Of a stretch of DNA of 64,000 bases, positions 7,061-35,669 are shown piece after piece; the stretch's first letter is position 1; each line of letters starts with the position of its first letter. Source of the stretch: Haloferula helveola. GTDB lineage: Bacteria > Verrucomicrobiota > Verrucomicrobiia > Verrucomicrobiales > Akkermansiaceae. The position numbers were made by a program, and so were the translations under genes. The stretch is from NCBI RefSeq assembly GCF_037076345.1, contig NZ_AP024702.1, positions 1,426,001-1,490,000 on the forward strand. Reading direction: 5' to 3'. A model generated the notes under the pieces. That model searched no databases, was not told the DNA's origin, and saw nothing but the letters and a program-made list of their open reading frames with translations.

Positions 7061-7405
7061 TCAGGGGCGCACGGCCACCGGCACCGGATCCGGCTGGGCC
7101 AGCAACTGCACTTTCTCGACGACGCCGTGATCGACGGCCGCCAGGGAGGAATTCATCAGTTCGAGCTGGGCCCGGATCTCGTAACGGTCGAGCAACCGCT
7201 CCTTGCGGACATCGATCACCTGGATGTCGAGGTGATGCTGCTCGATCCGCTCGCGTGCCTCGGCGATCTTGCGCTCGGTCTTGATCTGACCGTTGCGGTA
7301 GATCGCATGGAGCGCACCACCGGTAGTCGCGACAATCGCCATCAACGCCAGCGCGATGAAGGCGGCGACGGGCGTCTGGGTGTCTTGGGAACGTTTGCGG
7401 TTCAT
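7061..7405 (-). CDS. ftsL: FtsL-like small bitopic division protein
   Basis: A 114-residue protein with a short basic N-terminus (MNRKRSQDTQT), one membrane segment (about residues 12-32) and a periplasmic part rich in charged and heptad-like residues (KTERKIAEARERIEQHHLDI). This is the architecture of FtsL, the bitopic scaffold of the FtsQLB complex. The name rests mainly on that architecture and its position between rsmH and ftsI, since FtsL sequences are poorly conserved. Its ATG overlaps the rsmH stop by four bases; eight bases separate it from ftsI. Confidence 0.75.
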   Translation of the reverse strand: MNRKRSQDTQTPVAAFIALALMAIVATTGGALHAIYRNGQIKTERKIAEARERIEQHHLDIQVIDVRKERLLDRYEIRAQLELMNSSLAAVDHGVVEKVQLLAQPDPVPVAVRP

Positions 7406-8364
7406 GGTCGTGGAGTCGTTGGGTCCAGAAGCTCGGCGACCCGCAGTTTCGCACTGCGGGCCCTCGGATTGATTCGGATCTCTTCGTCGCTTGGAGCGAT
7501 CGCTTTGCGCTGTGGCAGCCGGAATGCCCAGCGCGGGTTTGGCCGTGGCTCGGGCCACTCGGGGCGGTCCAGCCATGGCCGGGACCGGTCCTGCATGAAT
7601 TGCTTCACCATCCGGTCCTCGAGACTGTGGAAGGTAATGACGAGCAACCGGCCCCCTGGCTTGAGCAGGTCGACCGAGTGCTCGAGCGCCCGCTGCAGGG
7701 ATCCGAGTTCGTCGTTCACCGCGATCCGGATCGCTTGGAACGAACGGGTCGCCGGGTGCGTCCGCCCCTTCCGCCCGACCGCCTTTTCGATGCAGTCGGC
7801 CAGATCCAGGGTGGACTGAAAGGGTTGCTCGTTGCGGCGGCGGACGATCGCAGCGGCGATTCGCCGGGCCTGCGGCTCCTCGCCGTACTCCCGGAGAATC
7901 TTGCGGATCTCCTCTTCCGACCACTCGTTGACCACCGTCGCGGCGGTCAACTCCGTCGCGGGTCCCATCCGCATGTCGAGCGGGCCGTCGCCCCGGAACG
8001 AGAATCCCCGTTCCGGGGCGTCCAGCTGACGAGACGAAACCCCGAGGTCCAGGAGCAGGCCATCAGCCCGCTCTCCCCCCTGGACCTCAGGGTTGTCTCG
8101 GAAATCCGAGAAATTGCCCTGCCAGGTGCTGAAGCGCTCGCCGTACTTCGAAAGCCGCGCCTGCGCGTGCGCGAGGGCTTCCGGGTCGCGGTCGATGCCC
8201 AACACGCGGGCGCCGGCTTCGAGAAACATCTCGCTGTGCCCGCCCCCGCCGAGGGTGCCGTCGATGATGAATTTGCCGGACCCGGCGGCCATCCATTCCC
8301 GCGTTTCCTCAGGGAGGACCGATACGTGGTAACCTGGACGGCCGCTGTCCGACACATCACACAT
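7402..8364 (-). CDS. rsmH: 16S rRNA (cytosine-1402-N4)-methyltransferase RsmH (MraW)
   Basis: SAM-dependent methyltransferase acting on C1402 of 16S rRNA in the ribosomal P site. From the ATG at 8364 it gives 320 residues, normal for the family. It starts MCDVSDSGRPGYHVSVLPEE, then IIDGTLGGGGHSEMFL and LGIDRDPEAL (SAM pocket), DLGVSSRQLD and the C-terminal ITFHSLEDRMVKQFM. The frame stays open about 270 codons further upstream through the repeat array. I do not extend the gene because copies of the array differ without favouring third codon positions. A GGTGA five bases before the ATG can act as ribosome binding site; it lies in sequence shared with the array units. Confidence 0.94.
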   Translation of the reverse strand: MCDVSDSGRPGYHVSVLPEETREWMAAGSGKFIIDGTLGGGGHSEMFLEAGARVLGIDRDPEALAHAQARLSKYGERFSTWQGNFSDFRDNPEVQGGERADGLLLDLGVSSRQLDAPERGFSFRGDGPLDMRMGPATELTAATVVNEWSEEEIRKILREYGEEPQARRIAAAIVRRRNEQPFQSTLDLADCIEKAVGRKGRTHPATRSFQAIRIAVNDELGSLQRALEHSVDLLKPGGRLLVITFHSLEDRMVKQFMQDRSRPWLDRPEWPEPRPNPRWAFRLPQRKAIAPSDEEIRINPRARSAKLRVAELLDPTTPRP

Positions 8365-8379
8365 GAAAGTCACCGGCCG

Positions 8380-8851
8380 CCGCCCCGCAAACCAGCCATG
8401 GAAACCGGGGCGGACAACCGTGTCATGACGCTTCGGAAGGACCGCTGTCCCTTTCGTTCCTTCCGATCGCTTGGAAAAAAGTTCCGCGGCCCGTGCCGTA
8501 AACCAGCCATGGAAACCGGCACGGACACGCGGGTTGATTGGCGAAAGGAGCACTGTCCCGAGAAACTCCCTCCGCTCAGCCTGGAAAGTCACCGGTCGCC
8601 GCTCCGCAAACCAGCCATGGAAACCGGAGCGGACAACCGTGTCATGATGCACCGGACGGGCCGCTGTCCCTTTCGTCCCGTCTTGGTGCTTGGAAAATGA
8701 TTCCGCGGCCCGTGCCGTAAACCAGCCATGGAAACCGGCACGGACACGCGGAGTAAGTGGCGAAAGGAGCACTGTCCCGAGAAACTCCTTCCGCTCAGCC
8801 TGGGAAATCACCGGTCGCCGCCCCGCAAACCAGCCATGGAAACCGGAGCGG
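8380..8851 (-). repeat. Five-copy alternating hairpin array between mraZ and rsmH
   Basis: Five near-identical 34-base hairpins lie at 8380-8413, 8491-8524, 8599-8632, 8710-8743 and 8818-8851. Start-to-start spacing is 111, 108, 111 and 108 bases. Each has 8-base arms around an 18-base loop that is the same in all copies except its first base (c in copies 1, 3, 5; t in 2, 4). Stems of copies 1, 3, 5 are one type and of 2, 4 another. Arms co-vary: ccgccccg/cggggcgg, ccgctccg/cggagcgg, ccgtgccg/cggcacgg. Copy 5 is mismatched as C-A on the plus strand but becomes a G-U pair in the minus-strand RNA, the direction of the operon. Spacers share a GGGACAG core (minus strand). The function is unknown. 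Confidence 0.9.
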
Positions 8852-9029
8852 ACAACCGTTTGGGTCACGGTGCGGAGAGCTGTCCCGAACACTCCGGACC
8901 GTGGGAAAAATACGCCCAACCCCAGCACCCGCGCCGTAGCGGAGGTGGGTGCCACCGGACGACTGGGTCCGGATGCCGGGGTTGGAAGGGCGAACAGCAT
9001 GTTGTCGTTCGTTGGGTGAAATTCTTCGT

Positions 9030-9482
9030 TTAGAGGACGCCGAGGCCGCCATCGTCCATGGCCAGGTCGGCTTCTTCGATGCGACGGAAGCTCTCTTCCG
9101 TGCAGATGATGTAGTAGCCGTCGCGGCCCGCGAGTTTCACGGCGCCGTCGGCCTTGAGTCCGATCCGCTCGGCCCACTCCTTGGGAACGGTCAGCTTGCC
9201 TTGGCTGCTGATCGTCGCCTCCTTCGAGCTCATGCGGAGCGCGCCGGCGAGCTTCTGCTTGTTGGCCGGAGGAAGCTCCGACTCGGAGATCTGGCGGAAC
9301 TTGTCCTGGAAGGCCGCGTCGGTGAACACCTTGATCACCTTCTCGTCCTGCTCCTGCGAAACCTGCAGGCGAATCGCCTCCCCCTCGCCGTCGGGACGGA
9401 AAGCCACGGGGATGGAAACCCGGAACTTCGGGTCCATCTTGTAGTCGTAATGACTCTCGTAGACTTTGGCTTCAACCGACAT
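9030..9482 (-). CDS. mraZ: Transcriptional regulator MraZ
   Basis: First gene of the division/wall operon, a DNA-binding protein with two swapped-hairpin AbrB-like domains that in studied bacteria binds its own promoter. The 150-residue product shows DPKFRVSIPVAFRPDGEG in the first half and SSQGKLTVPKEWAERIGL in the second, the two MraZ half-domains. The C-terminus (EEADLAMDDGGLGVL) is slightly longer and acidic. No strong Shine-Dalgarno is visible before the ATG. A 665-base gap filled by the hairpin array separates it from rsmH, where the two genes are usually close. Confidence 0.9.
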   Translation of the reverse strand: MSVEAKVYESHYDYKMDPKFRVSIPVAFRPDGEGEAIRLQVSQEQDEKVIKVFTDAAFQDKFRQISESELPPANKQKLAGALRMSSKEATISSQGKLTVPKEWAERIGLKADGAVKLAGRDGYYIICTEESFRRIEEADLAMDDGGLGVL

Positions 9483-9504
9483 GGAAGGGCGTCAATTCGC
9501 TGAC

Positions 9505-9544
9505 GTGCCCCGAACTACACCAAAGTACACCCAAGTGCGCAAGA
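9505..9544 (-). promoter_or_regulatory. Candidate MraZ operator: four tandem decamers upstream of mraZ
   Basis: Read on the minus strand, four consecutive 10-base units (complement of 9544-9505) carry TTGGGTGTAC, TTTGGTGTAG and TTCGGGGCAC after a weaker first unit. Known MraZ sites are three TGGG(A/T)-type boxes every 10 bases. Here the boxes read TGGGT, TTGGT and TCGGG at exactly that spacing. The block ends 22 bases before the mraZ start, in the place expected for autoregulation. The match to MraZ is inferred from the known site design; the periodic repeat itself is directly visible. Confidence 0.65.
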
Positions 9545-10139
9545 GAAATTGAAGAAGCCCAAAATATTTTTTAGATGCACTGGAAATCAATGAGTTACGA
9601 AGTGTATCTGAGTGCTTTTCGTAGCCCCTAAGACCAAATCCAACCCCGTCGAGGTGGGAATTTTTGCAATTTCAGCCACCCCGAGAGCCTCTCCTCCACT
9701 TTTCAAAGCTCTGTAGTGTACTTCGCGTCGATTCGGTGATCTCCGGTGTACTTTATGCCAAAAACTTCGAAGGCGCCGCCCGAGCGTCAAGCCCTTGAAC
9801 CGAGAGAATCGAGGCAACTGACGCGGCAAATGCCCGAAGCCACCTCCAAAGCCCGCCCACAGGGGTTCGTAGTTCCCCGTTTACGGGGTCTAGGGATTCA
9901 TGGCCTGTGAAATAGAGCCATCCGCCGCTTCACCGATCACCGCGACCACGCGCCCCAACGACGGACACCAACTGCACCGCTGTAGGAATCCCCGCAGGAA
10001 CACCGCGACCGAGGGATTTGGTCGTGGTGGCAGAATTGCCTCCACCCCGTTCCAGACTCGCCGGCACACGAAGCCGTCACGGACGGCTTGCCGAATTCAA
10101 ACCCACCGACGCTCCGCTGCCGTTGGGACTGCCTCCCTC
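9545..10139. other. Intergenic stretch with no convincing gene
   Basis: Upstream of the mraZ operon. It is A/T-richer near 9550-9600, where the mraZ promoter probably lies. Two copies of gtgtactt occur on the plus strand (9716-9723 and 9747-9754); the second sits in GGTGTACTTT, a 10-mer also present on the minus strand in the MraZ-type decamers. A minus-strand 80-codon frame (9587-9829) resembles nothing I recognise. A small hairpin (ccccg-tttacgggg) lies near 9877. No tRNA, RNase P, SRP or tmRNA signature was found. Confidence 0.4.
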
Positions 10140-12329: not shown

Positions 12330-13187
12330 ATGAAATGGATTTCAGCGCTGCTCCTCTCCCTTGTCCTTTGCAGCTGTGGCGGCGGCTTCGGCGGCACCTC
12401 GGTCGGCAGCTCCCCCGCGATTCTGAATGTCTCCGGCTGGGATCCCAAAGAGGTCCAGCGGAACGGCGACCGATACTCCCCCCAGGATGTGTCGGCGATG
12501 CGTCGCAACGGGGCGCTGGGGCTGATCGCGCGCTCGGCGAAGGGTCCACTACTCGACGAGAAGTTCTCGGACTTCATCAAGTCGGCGGACCGCGAAGGCA
12601 TGCTGGTCGGCGCGTATCACTTCGTAACGATGGATCAAGATCCCGCGGCACAGGCGGTGTCGTTCGTCAGCCGGGTTCGTTCGACGGCGCGCAGCCGCGG
12701 CCTTTCCCATCGGAAGATCCTCCTCGTCGGGGACTTCGATACCAAGTCGAGCCCCGACCGACTCGTCCGTTTCATCACCAAGGTCGAGGAGCTCACCGGG
12801 GTGACACCGGTGGTCTATCTGGAGAATAGCGCCGCCCTCCGCACCAGCCTGAGCAATGCCTCACCCGCCCAGAAGCGGATCATCCGGCGGGCACCATACT
12901 GGATCGCGCTCTACGGACCGGCCGGCACCGAGCGCAGCATGGGTGAAACGCTCACACCGGACGGACTGACCGAGCAGTACGGCGTGTGGAATGACTGGGT
13001 GATGTGGCAGTACGGCGGGGTGCTGTGGCAGAACGGCCGCTCGACGCCGAAGCACTACAGTACCGCATCGTGGCGGAGTCCCCGCTACTTCGGCAATATG
13101 GCCCACCCGACGGAGCGCAATGTCTTCAAGGGCAGCGAGGGTGACCTTCGCGCCTTCTGGAACCGCCACGGACTGGCGTGGTGGTGA
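12330..13187 (+). CDS. GH25-like lysozyme-fold lipoprotein, catalytic acids uncertain
   Basis: A 285-residue secreted lipoprotein: MKWISALLLSLVLCSC ends in a lipobox-type cysteine. The body follows the glycoside hydrolase 25 barrel: a first strand LNVSGWDP where active enzymes have a D-x-S-x-W-Q type strand, GAYHFVTM, LLVGDFD where the family usually has a D-x-E pair, then VVYLEN and a final DWVMWQYGG. The overall order of strands fits a muramidase fold. However, the first acidic residue is Asn and the catalytic pair reads Asp-Phe-Asp. It may be a low-activity enzyme or a glycan-binding relative. Start: ATG at 12330, giving a normal signal sequence. Confidence 0.65.
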   Translation: MKWISALLLSLVLCSCGGGFGGTSVGSSPAILNVSGWDPKEVQRNGDRYSPQDVSAMRRNGALGLIARSAKGPLLDEKFSDFIKSADREGMLVGAYHFVTMDQDPAAQAVSFVSRVRSTARSRGLSHRKILLVGDFDTKSSPDRLVRFITKVEELTGVTPVVYLENSAALRTSLSNASPAQKRIIRRAPYWIALYGPAGTERSMGETLTPDGLTEQYGVWNDWVMWQYGGVLWQNGRSTPKHYSTASWRSPRYFGNMAHPTERNVFKGSEGDLRAFWNRHGLAWW

Positions 13188-15294: not shown

Positions 15295-15978
15295 ATGATC
15301 AACGAACTCATCAACGATATGGTGGACGCAGGCGTCCACTACGGACACCAGACGAAGAAGTGGAACCCGCAAATGAAGCCCTACCTGATGAAGGACAAGG
15401 GCGGGATCTACATCATCAACCTGGAGCAAACGGTGAAGTGCCTGGACAAGGCCGCCGATTTCCTTTCCGACCTCGCCACCAAGGGCAAGAACATCCTCTT
15501 CGTCGGCTGCAAGCGTCAGGCCCAGGAGGCTGTCCGCCAGTCGGCCGAAGCAACCAAGCAGTTCTACGTGAACCACCGTTGGCTCGGCGGCATGCTGACC
15601 AACATGGCGACCGTCAAGAAGTCGATCGAGCGCCTGAAGTGGCTCGAAGGCCTCGAGAAGTCGCCCGAGTTCAAGTCGATTTCGAAGAAGGAGTTCGCCG
15701 CGCTGACGCGTGAGAAGAACAAGCTTCGCCGCAACCTCGACGGCATCCGCAACATGGACGGCATGCCCGACGCGCTGGTGATCGTCGACTCCGCACGCGA
15801 GTCGATCGCTGTCGCCGAAGCCCGCCGCCTCAACATCCCGATCGTCGCGATCGTCGACTCCAACGCCGACCCGTCGGTCGTCGACTACCCGATCCCGGGC
15901 AACGACGATTCGGTCCGCTCGATCCGCATCATCCTTCAGAATCTCGTCGACGCCGTCGTCACGGGCAAGAAGGGCTGA
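15295..15978 (+). CDS. rpsB: 30S ribosomal protein S2
   Basis: Small-subunit ribosomal protein needed for mRNA docking and bS1 recruitment. The 227-residue product begins [33 protein letters not shown] is the S2 signature. It also has [19 protein letters not shown] and [15 protein letters not shown] plus [20 protein letters not shown] near the end. The ATG at 15295 gives a normal N-terminus, while the frame upstream has no S2 similarity. It is followed by tsf, the usual order, with a 92-base gap. Confidence 0.97.
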
Positions 15979-34337: not shown

Positions 34338-35669
34338 ATGCGCTTCACATCCTTCTGTCTGTTGTTCGTGCCCGCCACGCTGTTGGCCGAGGAAGCCTGC
34401 GAATGCCCGCACGACCACGCCGACGAGCACCAGCACGATGGTCACCCTGCTGAGACATCGGGGAGCCCGCACCATCCGCATCTTGAATTGGACGAGCATG
34501 ACGACGGTTGGTTCCACTTTCACCCTCACCTCTCCGCCGCGATCGCGCTGGGAGGGTCGACGTCCGAGAAGAACCTCGGTCTGCTTCGTGGTGGCCACGC
34601 GCCGATCGACGACGGTTTCAACCTGCAGGGCATCGAGTTCGGAGCGGTGATGGAGTTTGGCTCGGCCCTCTCCCTCCACACCACCTACAACACCTTCTGG
34701 GACCGCTACGACCACTGGGACGGTGAGTGGGAAGACGCCTACCTCGCGCTCACGCTTCCTGCGGGCATTTCGCTCCGCGGCGGTCAGTTCTTCGCCCCCT
34801 TCGGCCACGAAAACCAACTCCATCTTCACGACCGAGCGTTCGTAGAGCCACCGATTTCGGTGATCCGTCTGCTTGGAGAAGAAGGACTGGTCGTGCAAGG
34901 CGGTGACATCGCGTTCCACCTTCCCGGTCCCGGCGAAAACACCATCTTCCGGTTCGGGTATGGCCAGTCGCGGAGCCACTCCCACGGCGGTGCGCGGGAT
35001 TTCCGCAGGGATCTTTACCAAGAGGCGCTCGAGCACGCCGGTGAGGAGCATCATGATGATGACGACGATGATGATCACGACCACGAGGAGGAGGAACACG
35101 CCCACGGTTTCGCCGGAAATGGTGGCGTCTATGACGTCGACGATGCCTATCTCGACGATGGCTTCTTCTTCGCCCGTTTGGAAACCGACGTTTGCAGTGG
35201 TTACGGCCTGAACCGTGCCGGCGTGTCGTTCGCCGCCGGGGAAAACGGCTTCGGCCGCACCACCTGGGTGGTCGGAGCTGACCTGTTCGGCACGTTCGAC
35301 CTGGCCGGCATGCCGTCGTGGTGGCGGGCGGAGGCGTTTTACCGGTCGGTCGACGCCTACGACCGCGCGGGGCTGCCGGGCCACTTTGACGAAACCGGCA
35401 TCTACGCCGCATGCGGTTGCGAATTCGTCCAGGACTGGATGGTCGCCGCCCGGGTCGAATGGGCCTCGGGAGACCGCATGGCCGGTGCGGAGCGCCGCCT
35501 CCGGGCCTCGACCAACGTTGAACATGTCTCCCATCTCGCCGAGTTCGCCGACCTTCACACCCGTCTGCAGTACACCTTCGACGACCTCGGCGGCTACGGC
35601 ACCGAGCACACGGTCTGGCTGCAGTTCGTGCTCAATCTGGGCGCCGCCGAGCACGGCCACGACCACTGA
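34338..35669 (+). CDS. Histidine/aspartate-rich outer-membrane beta-barrel, probably metal-linked
   Basis: A 443-residue exported protein (MRFTSFCLLFVPATLLAEE). The mature N-terminus is packed with His (CPHDHADEHQHDGH, HHPHLELDEHDDGWFHFHPH). A central loop has GEEHHDDDDDDDHDHEEEEHAH and the C-terminus ends LGAAEHGHDH. The rest is a series of amphipathic strands (HLSAAIALGG, DAYLALTLPAGISLRGGQFF, WMVAARVEWASG, HTVWLQFVLNLG) typical of outer-membrane barrels. Histidine-rich barrels of this kind often sit beside zinc or copper systems. The putative operator at 34267-34280 and the DUF6607-like neighbour fit such a role. Confidence 0.78.
   Translation: MRFTSFCLLFVPATLLAEEACECPHDHADEHQHDGHPAETSGSPHHPHLELDEHDDGWFHFHPHLSAAIALGGSTSEKNLGLLRGGHAPIDDGFNLQGIEFGAVMEFGSALSLHTTYNTFWDRYDHWDGEWEDAYLALTLPAGISLRGGQFFAPFGHENQLHLHDRAFVEPPISVIRLLGEEGLVVQGGDIAFHLPGPGENTIFRFGYGQSRSHSHGGARDFRRDLYQEALEHAGEEHHDDDDDDDHDHEEEEHAHGFAGNGGVYDVDDAYLDDGFFFARLETDVCSGYGLNRAGVSFAAGENGFGRTTWVVGADLFGTFDLAGMPSWWRAEAFYRSVDAYDRAGLPGHFDETGIYAACGCEFVQDWMVAARVEWASGDRMAGAERRLRASTNVEHVSHLAEFADLHTRLQYTFDDLGGYGTEHTVWLQFVLNLGAAEHGHDH

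Follow-up and report, generated by a model that had tools for sequence, protein, structure and literature searches.

A covarying hairpin array within the 5' coding part of rsmH in Haloferula helveola and its relatives suggests a hitherto undescribed form of RNA control

Introduction

The Rickettsia palindromic elements are palindromic segments that lie in frame within protein genes and are scattered over many of them. Transcription attenuators of the trp type depend on a translated leader-peptide RNA whose folding is ribosome-dependent, and arrays of the CsrB/RsmZ type consist of many hairpins with GGA-containing loops. A candidate structured RNA, the mraW RNA motif (RF01746), has been described at the rsmH/mraW gene of Actinomycetales (PMC2864571), and noncoding RNAs carved from coding regions (decRNAs) are known in E. 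coli (PMC6156199). Among the mobile palindromes, REPs insert into coding sequences and occur in Verrucomicrobia, and the terminal repeats of the related tyrosine transposases (TIRYT) share the word GGGGWSAS (PMC3733652). We found nothing in the open-access literature on a repeat extension of RsmH or a coding-embedded array at rsmH.

Here, we describe a hairpin array at the mraZ-rsmH junction in a 64-kb stretch of the Haloferula helveola genome (the window; its genome is labeled G000). Like the Rickettsia palindromic elements, it is a palindromic repeat in frame inside an ORF, but it sits at one locus, in covarying tandem copies, rather than in many genes. An open, conserved frame runs over the hairpins, whose folding may depend on ribosomes as in trp-type attenuators; however, this frame continues into the enzyme, a terminator is absent in the window, and the peptide sequence is not conserved. 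With the CsrB/RsmZ-type arrays it shares a multitude of hairpins with GGA-containing loops, whereas its host genus lacks CsrA and the array is embedded in coding sequence. It is a candidate structured RNA at rsmH/mraW like the mraW RNA motif, but in contrast to that actinobacterial leader it lies within the reading frame, is arranged in tandem, and comprises two hairpin classes. The decRNAs likewise have a stable structure within a coding region, though they are excised from mRNA, a step that would be hypothetical for the array. Finally, its short palindromes in coding sequence and GGGGWSAS-like word recall the REP/RAYT and TIRYT palindromes; unlike these, the array is not dispersed, occupies one locus, and shows inter-genus loop conservation and a sense-strand wobble bias.

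Results

Organization of the array

On the + strand of the window, AAACCAGCCATGGAAACCGG recurs five times without a mismatch (at 8389, 8500, 8608, 8719, and 8827), as against zero expected in dinucleotide shuffles of the window. The copies are spaced by 111/108/111/108 bases, each distance being divisible by three; both the five hairpin copies and their spacing had been recorded in an initial annotation of this DNA. The corresponding minus-strand hairpins (H1; 8373-8858) have an 8-bp stem extended past a bulged base by a 6-bp outer helix. A second class (H2), with a loop containing GGGACA and with A and B forms offset in register by one base, is placed between the H1 copies, and the 5' start of the element is a further hairpin, P0 (Table 1). 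In the mRNA the order is P0, H2, and then H1 and H2 in alternation, with the last H1 preceding the RsmH core; the alternating H2 and H1 display two fixed loop sequences, viz., UGGCUGGUU and (U)CGGGACAG. The initial annotation placed the element at 8380-8851, where there are indeed hairpins, but it missed the H2 class and P0, and the true extent is about 8373-8986. Elsewhere in the window, short tandem repeats of 15-21 bases occur at 12997-13037, 15729-15764, and 35053-35106.

Table 1. Features of the mraZ-rsmH junction in the window, in mRNA order
Feature	Coordinates	Strand	Evidence or remark
mraZ, divergent	9030..9482 (stop at 9030)	-	Pfam MraZ E 0.0056, under its cut-off
Full rsmH frame including N-terminal extension	7402..9000	-	Methyltransf_5 E 4.7e-104; ATG at 9000-8998
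Extension, 223 codons, bearing the RNA array	8332..9000	-	no stops in 30/30 genomes; near-neutral peptide
P0, first hairpin, CCAACCCC...GGGGTTGG	8915..8986	-	MFE fold; helix 14-18 bp in 14/14 home-genus (g1) genomes, with compensated changes
H2, loop GGGACA	8866..8903	-	
H1 copy, A type	8811..8858	-	covariance model R1, 59 bits
H2, A type	8760..8794	-	
H1 copy, alternate stem	8703..8750	-	covariance model R1, 53.1 bits
H2, alternate	8655..8682	-	
H1 copy, A type	8592..8639	-	covariance model R1, 60 bits
H2, A type	8541..8575	-	
H1 copy, alternate stem	8484..8531	-	covariance model R1, 53.1 bits
H2, alternate, 12 bp	8433..8466	-	
H1 copy closest to RsmH core	8373..8420	-	covariance model R1, 56.5 bits
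Downstream ATG, 11 codons ahead of RsmH core, possible annotated start	8362..8364	-	

Covariation and strand of the structure

In an alignment of 45 distinct H1 copies, 88% of the cells are paired and 11 of the 14 pairs show double-sided changes. The covariation score is 0.479, as against 0.145 in shuffled alignments (0/500) and at most 0.126 in slid ones, so that H1 behaves as a covarying structured RNA family beyond both kinds of control; this score and the counts below ignore phylogeny, and the repeats may convert within an array. Across 94 copies, the fourfold-synonymous pair X3-Z3 is Watson-Crick in 97% (CG 52, TA 20, GC 14, AT 5), and a peptide change from R..R to C..Q is brought about by a swap of a CG for a TA pair. 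The H2 stems have widely divergent sequences, and their pairing is still far above the arm-swapped controls (Watson-Crick fractions of 0.80 and 0.72 vs 0.57 and 0.47) and exceeds every shuffle. Wobble cells in H1 comprise 31 G-U against 4 A-C, placing the structure on the rsmH-sense strand, in the form of either RNA or single-stranded DNA. The bias is missing from H2 in its second register, largely because one A-C column recurs.

These results bear out the earlier observations that stem changes are compensated between copies and that copy 5 has a G-U pair in the minus-strand transcript. The proposal built on them, a conserved RNA structure in the direction of the operon, is supported by the homologous hairpins, the covariation, and the sense-strand wobble alike: related mraZ-rsmH gaps do contain homologues, the covariation in the alignment is strong, and no known dispersed repeat matches.

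An N-terminal extension of the rsmH reading frame

The same annotation had taken the locus for a 665-base noncoding insertion between mraZ and rsmH, a view that we revise: it is an in-frame extension of rsmH. A minus-strand ORF (7402-9177) is open from upstream of the array through into rsmH, and the rsmH frame across the extension contains no stops in 30 of 30 related genomes, against about 72 expected from dinucleotide shuffles, although these genomes, being related, do not amount to 30 independent tests. The frame is also open in three genomes outside the model building; a fourth such genome (G090) has a masked run of N across the region and gives no call. Indels in the extension come in multiples of three. 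An MLFA/MLFT start is conserved in the home genus (g1, the Haloferula/Luteolibacter group) and its sister genus (g13), both of the Akkermansiaceae, and in the window MLFA stands at 9000, the probable start of translation. In 7 of 22 genomes from these two genera, the stretch from the last H1 loop to the RsmH core is devoid of ATG, GTG, TTG, and CTG, and the ATG at 8364, which a gene caller may favor in G000, is missing in most relatives. The array segment is, in all likelihood, translated as the 5' part of the rsmH frame.

The neighboring MraZ of the window is itself divergent, its C-terminal match being MazE-like. Several genomes of the genus (G019, G006, G039, and others) encode a second RsmH paralog that is about 40% identical and lacks an obvious extension; G000 has no second match.

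Weak constraint on the encoded peptide

Across eight genomes of the genus, the extension has a pS of 0.238 and a pN of 0.182, compared with 0.430 and 0.090 in the RsmH core; pN/pS reaches 0.91 in the spacers vs 0.21 in the core, and dN/dS is about 0.7 over the extension as a whole. Synonymous divergence varies by structural class (pS 0.070 in loop cores, 0.259 in stems, and 0.297 in spacers, with 0.429 in rsmH). Of 101 Gly-Thr dipeptides, 89 are encoded by GGG ACA, while ACA makes up 3% of the Thr codons of four window genes. In two genomes (G006 and G071), the frame shifts within a single unit and is restored ahead of the next hairpin, a compensated double frameshift by which the peptide is rewritten and the GGGACA hairpin retained. 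No Pfam family scores above its cut-off in the extension, and an AlphaFold model based on a shallow alignment of seven sequences has a pLDDT of 32. By these measures, the peptide is near neutral, with the loops fixed at the nucleotide level.

Distribution among relatives and comparison with known elements

The array peptide is present in 17 of the 18 members of the genus, including Haloferula luteola, Luteolibacter marinus, Haloferula sp. BvORR071, and some labeled Akkermansiaceae; the exception is a 72% complete genome from which the mraZ match is missing too. The mraZ ortholog, likewise found in 17 of 18, adjoins rsmH wherever the region is assembled, and every array match lies at this junction, except that three fragmented assemblies have it on contig ends bearing mraZ or rsmH. 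The sister genus also has the array: the H1 covariance model matches 24 genomes, all of these two genera, among 107 of the family, with this junction as the one locus per genome and a copy number of 2 to 8. Among 388 genomes of the phylum it again finds only these genera, under strict filters that may miss weak relatives. A third genus (g10) keeps two H2-type hairpins with the fixed geometry TGGCTGGGCGG-N12-GGGAC, and short, unrelated RsmH extensions are seen in other Akkermansiaceae genera. Since the array is confined to two genera, or three, of a single family, rsmH function does not generally depend on it; in Verrucomicrobium spinosum, mraW is non-essential (PMC12283558). The mraZ-rsmH junction of g10 (G066, G023, G042, G059, G010, and G074) has two similar long hairpins with the loop AAGGGACG, the first often followed by a U-rich tract that is terminator-like, though inside the open frame; no such tract follows the first hairpin outside g10.

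A cmscan of 7900-9500 against Rfam (E up to 1) matched no family, RF01746 included. Dispersed copies were found in none of the genomes searched, G000 holding just the five local ones, and we reject a dispersed repeat given the single locus per genome; look-alikes of AAACCAGCCATGAAAACC in other genomes were discounted, as they probably represent start-codon contexts (ATG AAA ACC). Titration of CsrA is likewise rejected, as CsrA/RsmA is found in 0 of the 18 genomes of the genus and three control genomes are positive. We found no intrinsic terminator or promoter in 8300-9650; a terminator array is rejected for the window, where a strict attenuator is likewise unsupported.

Discussion

A frame that must be open, a peptide that is free to change, and conserved fixed-loop hairpins, which the sequence evidence establishes on a defined strand at a single conserved locus, are best explained by an RNA element that is traversed by ribosomes. 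We tentatively propose that the segment is a cis-regulatory RNA array, coupled to translation, within the 5' coding part of rsmH. Folding of the mRNA would give P0 and then H2 and H1 in alternation. Ribosomes that initiate at the ATG at 9000 would first read through all of the hairpins, yielding a disposable N-terminal peptide, and then make the methyltransferase, so that the array could report or control the translation level of the rsmH message. Passing ribosomes would melt the hairpins and allow expression of rsmH together with the division and cell-wall genes that follow it, whereas under low translation the hairpins would fold and their repeated loops might recruit a putative RNA-binding protein or nuclease that lowers output. 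Translation from 9000, a loop-binding partner, the sense of the effect, and any influence on the downstream genes are our inferences, and regulation of the operon by the array is itself conjectural. Weighing against such a regulatory array are its occurrence in only two or three genera of one family, its variable copy number, and a wobble bias that would equally fit a hairpin in single-stranded sense DNA. A bolder form of the proposal, which we consider speculative and rather unlikely as a whole, is that about 220 near-meaningless codons are translated because the RNA is the functional product, with a hairpin array that senses translation of the cell-wall operon and possibly derives from transposon palindromes whose transposase survives fused to an Akkermansia-like RsmH.

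That origin bears on the alternative that survives best, though we regard it as unlikely: the hairpins might be domesticated remnants of RAYT/TIRYT-type palindromes with no regulatory role, lodged in a dispensable N-terminal stretch of RsmH, with unequal exchange multiplying the copies, template switching between arms keeping the stems, and the frame being kept solely for RsmH. At the mraZ-rsmH junction of an Akkermansia-like group (g3; L145-L151), the N terminus of RsmH bears an in-frame domain of some 200 aa at the same position as the array extension. This domain gives a weak Y1_Tnp match (E 0.001, under the cut-off) and can be aligned to L172 and L173, both RAYTs, with NHVH and SWK kept in some members and the motif eroded in deeper ones; the region of the C-terminal YIRKN/YVRMN motif of these two RAYTs is not recognizable in it. 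It looks like a degenerate RAYT/Y1 tyrosine transposase. The entry of REPs into coding sequences, their presence in Verrucomicrobia, and the resemblance of GGGGWSAS to CGGGACAG (PMC3733652) would fit such remnants, as would the unrelated short extensions at this place in other members of the family, and the RAYT-like fusion together with the GGGGWSAS word makes a transposon origin of the hairpins possible. However, dispersed copies are absent from all the genomes searched, none of the palindromes near the RAYTs of this genome resembles the array (two loci read closely), and template switching leaves the invariance of the loops at synonymous sites between genera unexplained. The RAYT gene at L173 is closely followed by a palindrome (GGACCGCGCGGCTCCGACCGCGC...) that is near-perfect over some 26 bp, and one of its arms recurs farther downstream.

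Whereas the cis-acting array that we favor would work in the message itself, it might instead be excised as a small, stable RNA (a decRNA or sponge) and act in trans through its loops, which, being many and identical, would suit a sponge. Coding-region-derived noncoding RNAs have precedent in E. coli (PMC6156199), but a CsrA sponge is excluded in the genus and an excised RNA would not require so strict a conservation of the frame, which makes this improbable. Still less probable is that the repeats act as protein, in the form of a basic 36-residue repeat domain at the RsmH N terminus: the frame that is open in all 30 genomes, the indels in multiples of three, and a recognizable repeat peptide (GWL...LGT) would be expected of one, but the near-neutral spacers and overall dN/dS, the fixation of rare codons, the unfolded model (from its shallow alignment), and the compensated frameshift of G006 and G071 speak against it. 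Autoregulation by rRNA mimicry, in which the loops would imitate the 16S target of RsmH, has next to no likelihood and is largely refuted, since H1 and H2 resemble the 16S rRNA of the same genome no more than shuffled sequences do, both directly and as complements, despite a superficially h44-like CCGCCC..CCATGG..TGGTT in the A type of H1.

Our preferred reading, the translation-coupled array, suggests that RNA control of a previously undescribed sort is embedded in a protein-coding gene. The search for structured regulatory RNAs is usually directed at noncoding gaps, and an array of this kind would be overlooked because it lies inside a long open frame, which would itself pass for a repeat protein. 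The locus separates two constraints rarely seen apart, in that an open frame is strictly needed and a particular peptide hardly at all. It would offer a clean test case for RNA elements within coding sequences and, in a phylum that has been little studied, a new point of access to the regulation of the division and cell-wall cluster.
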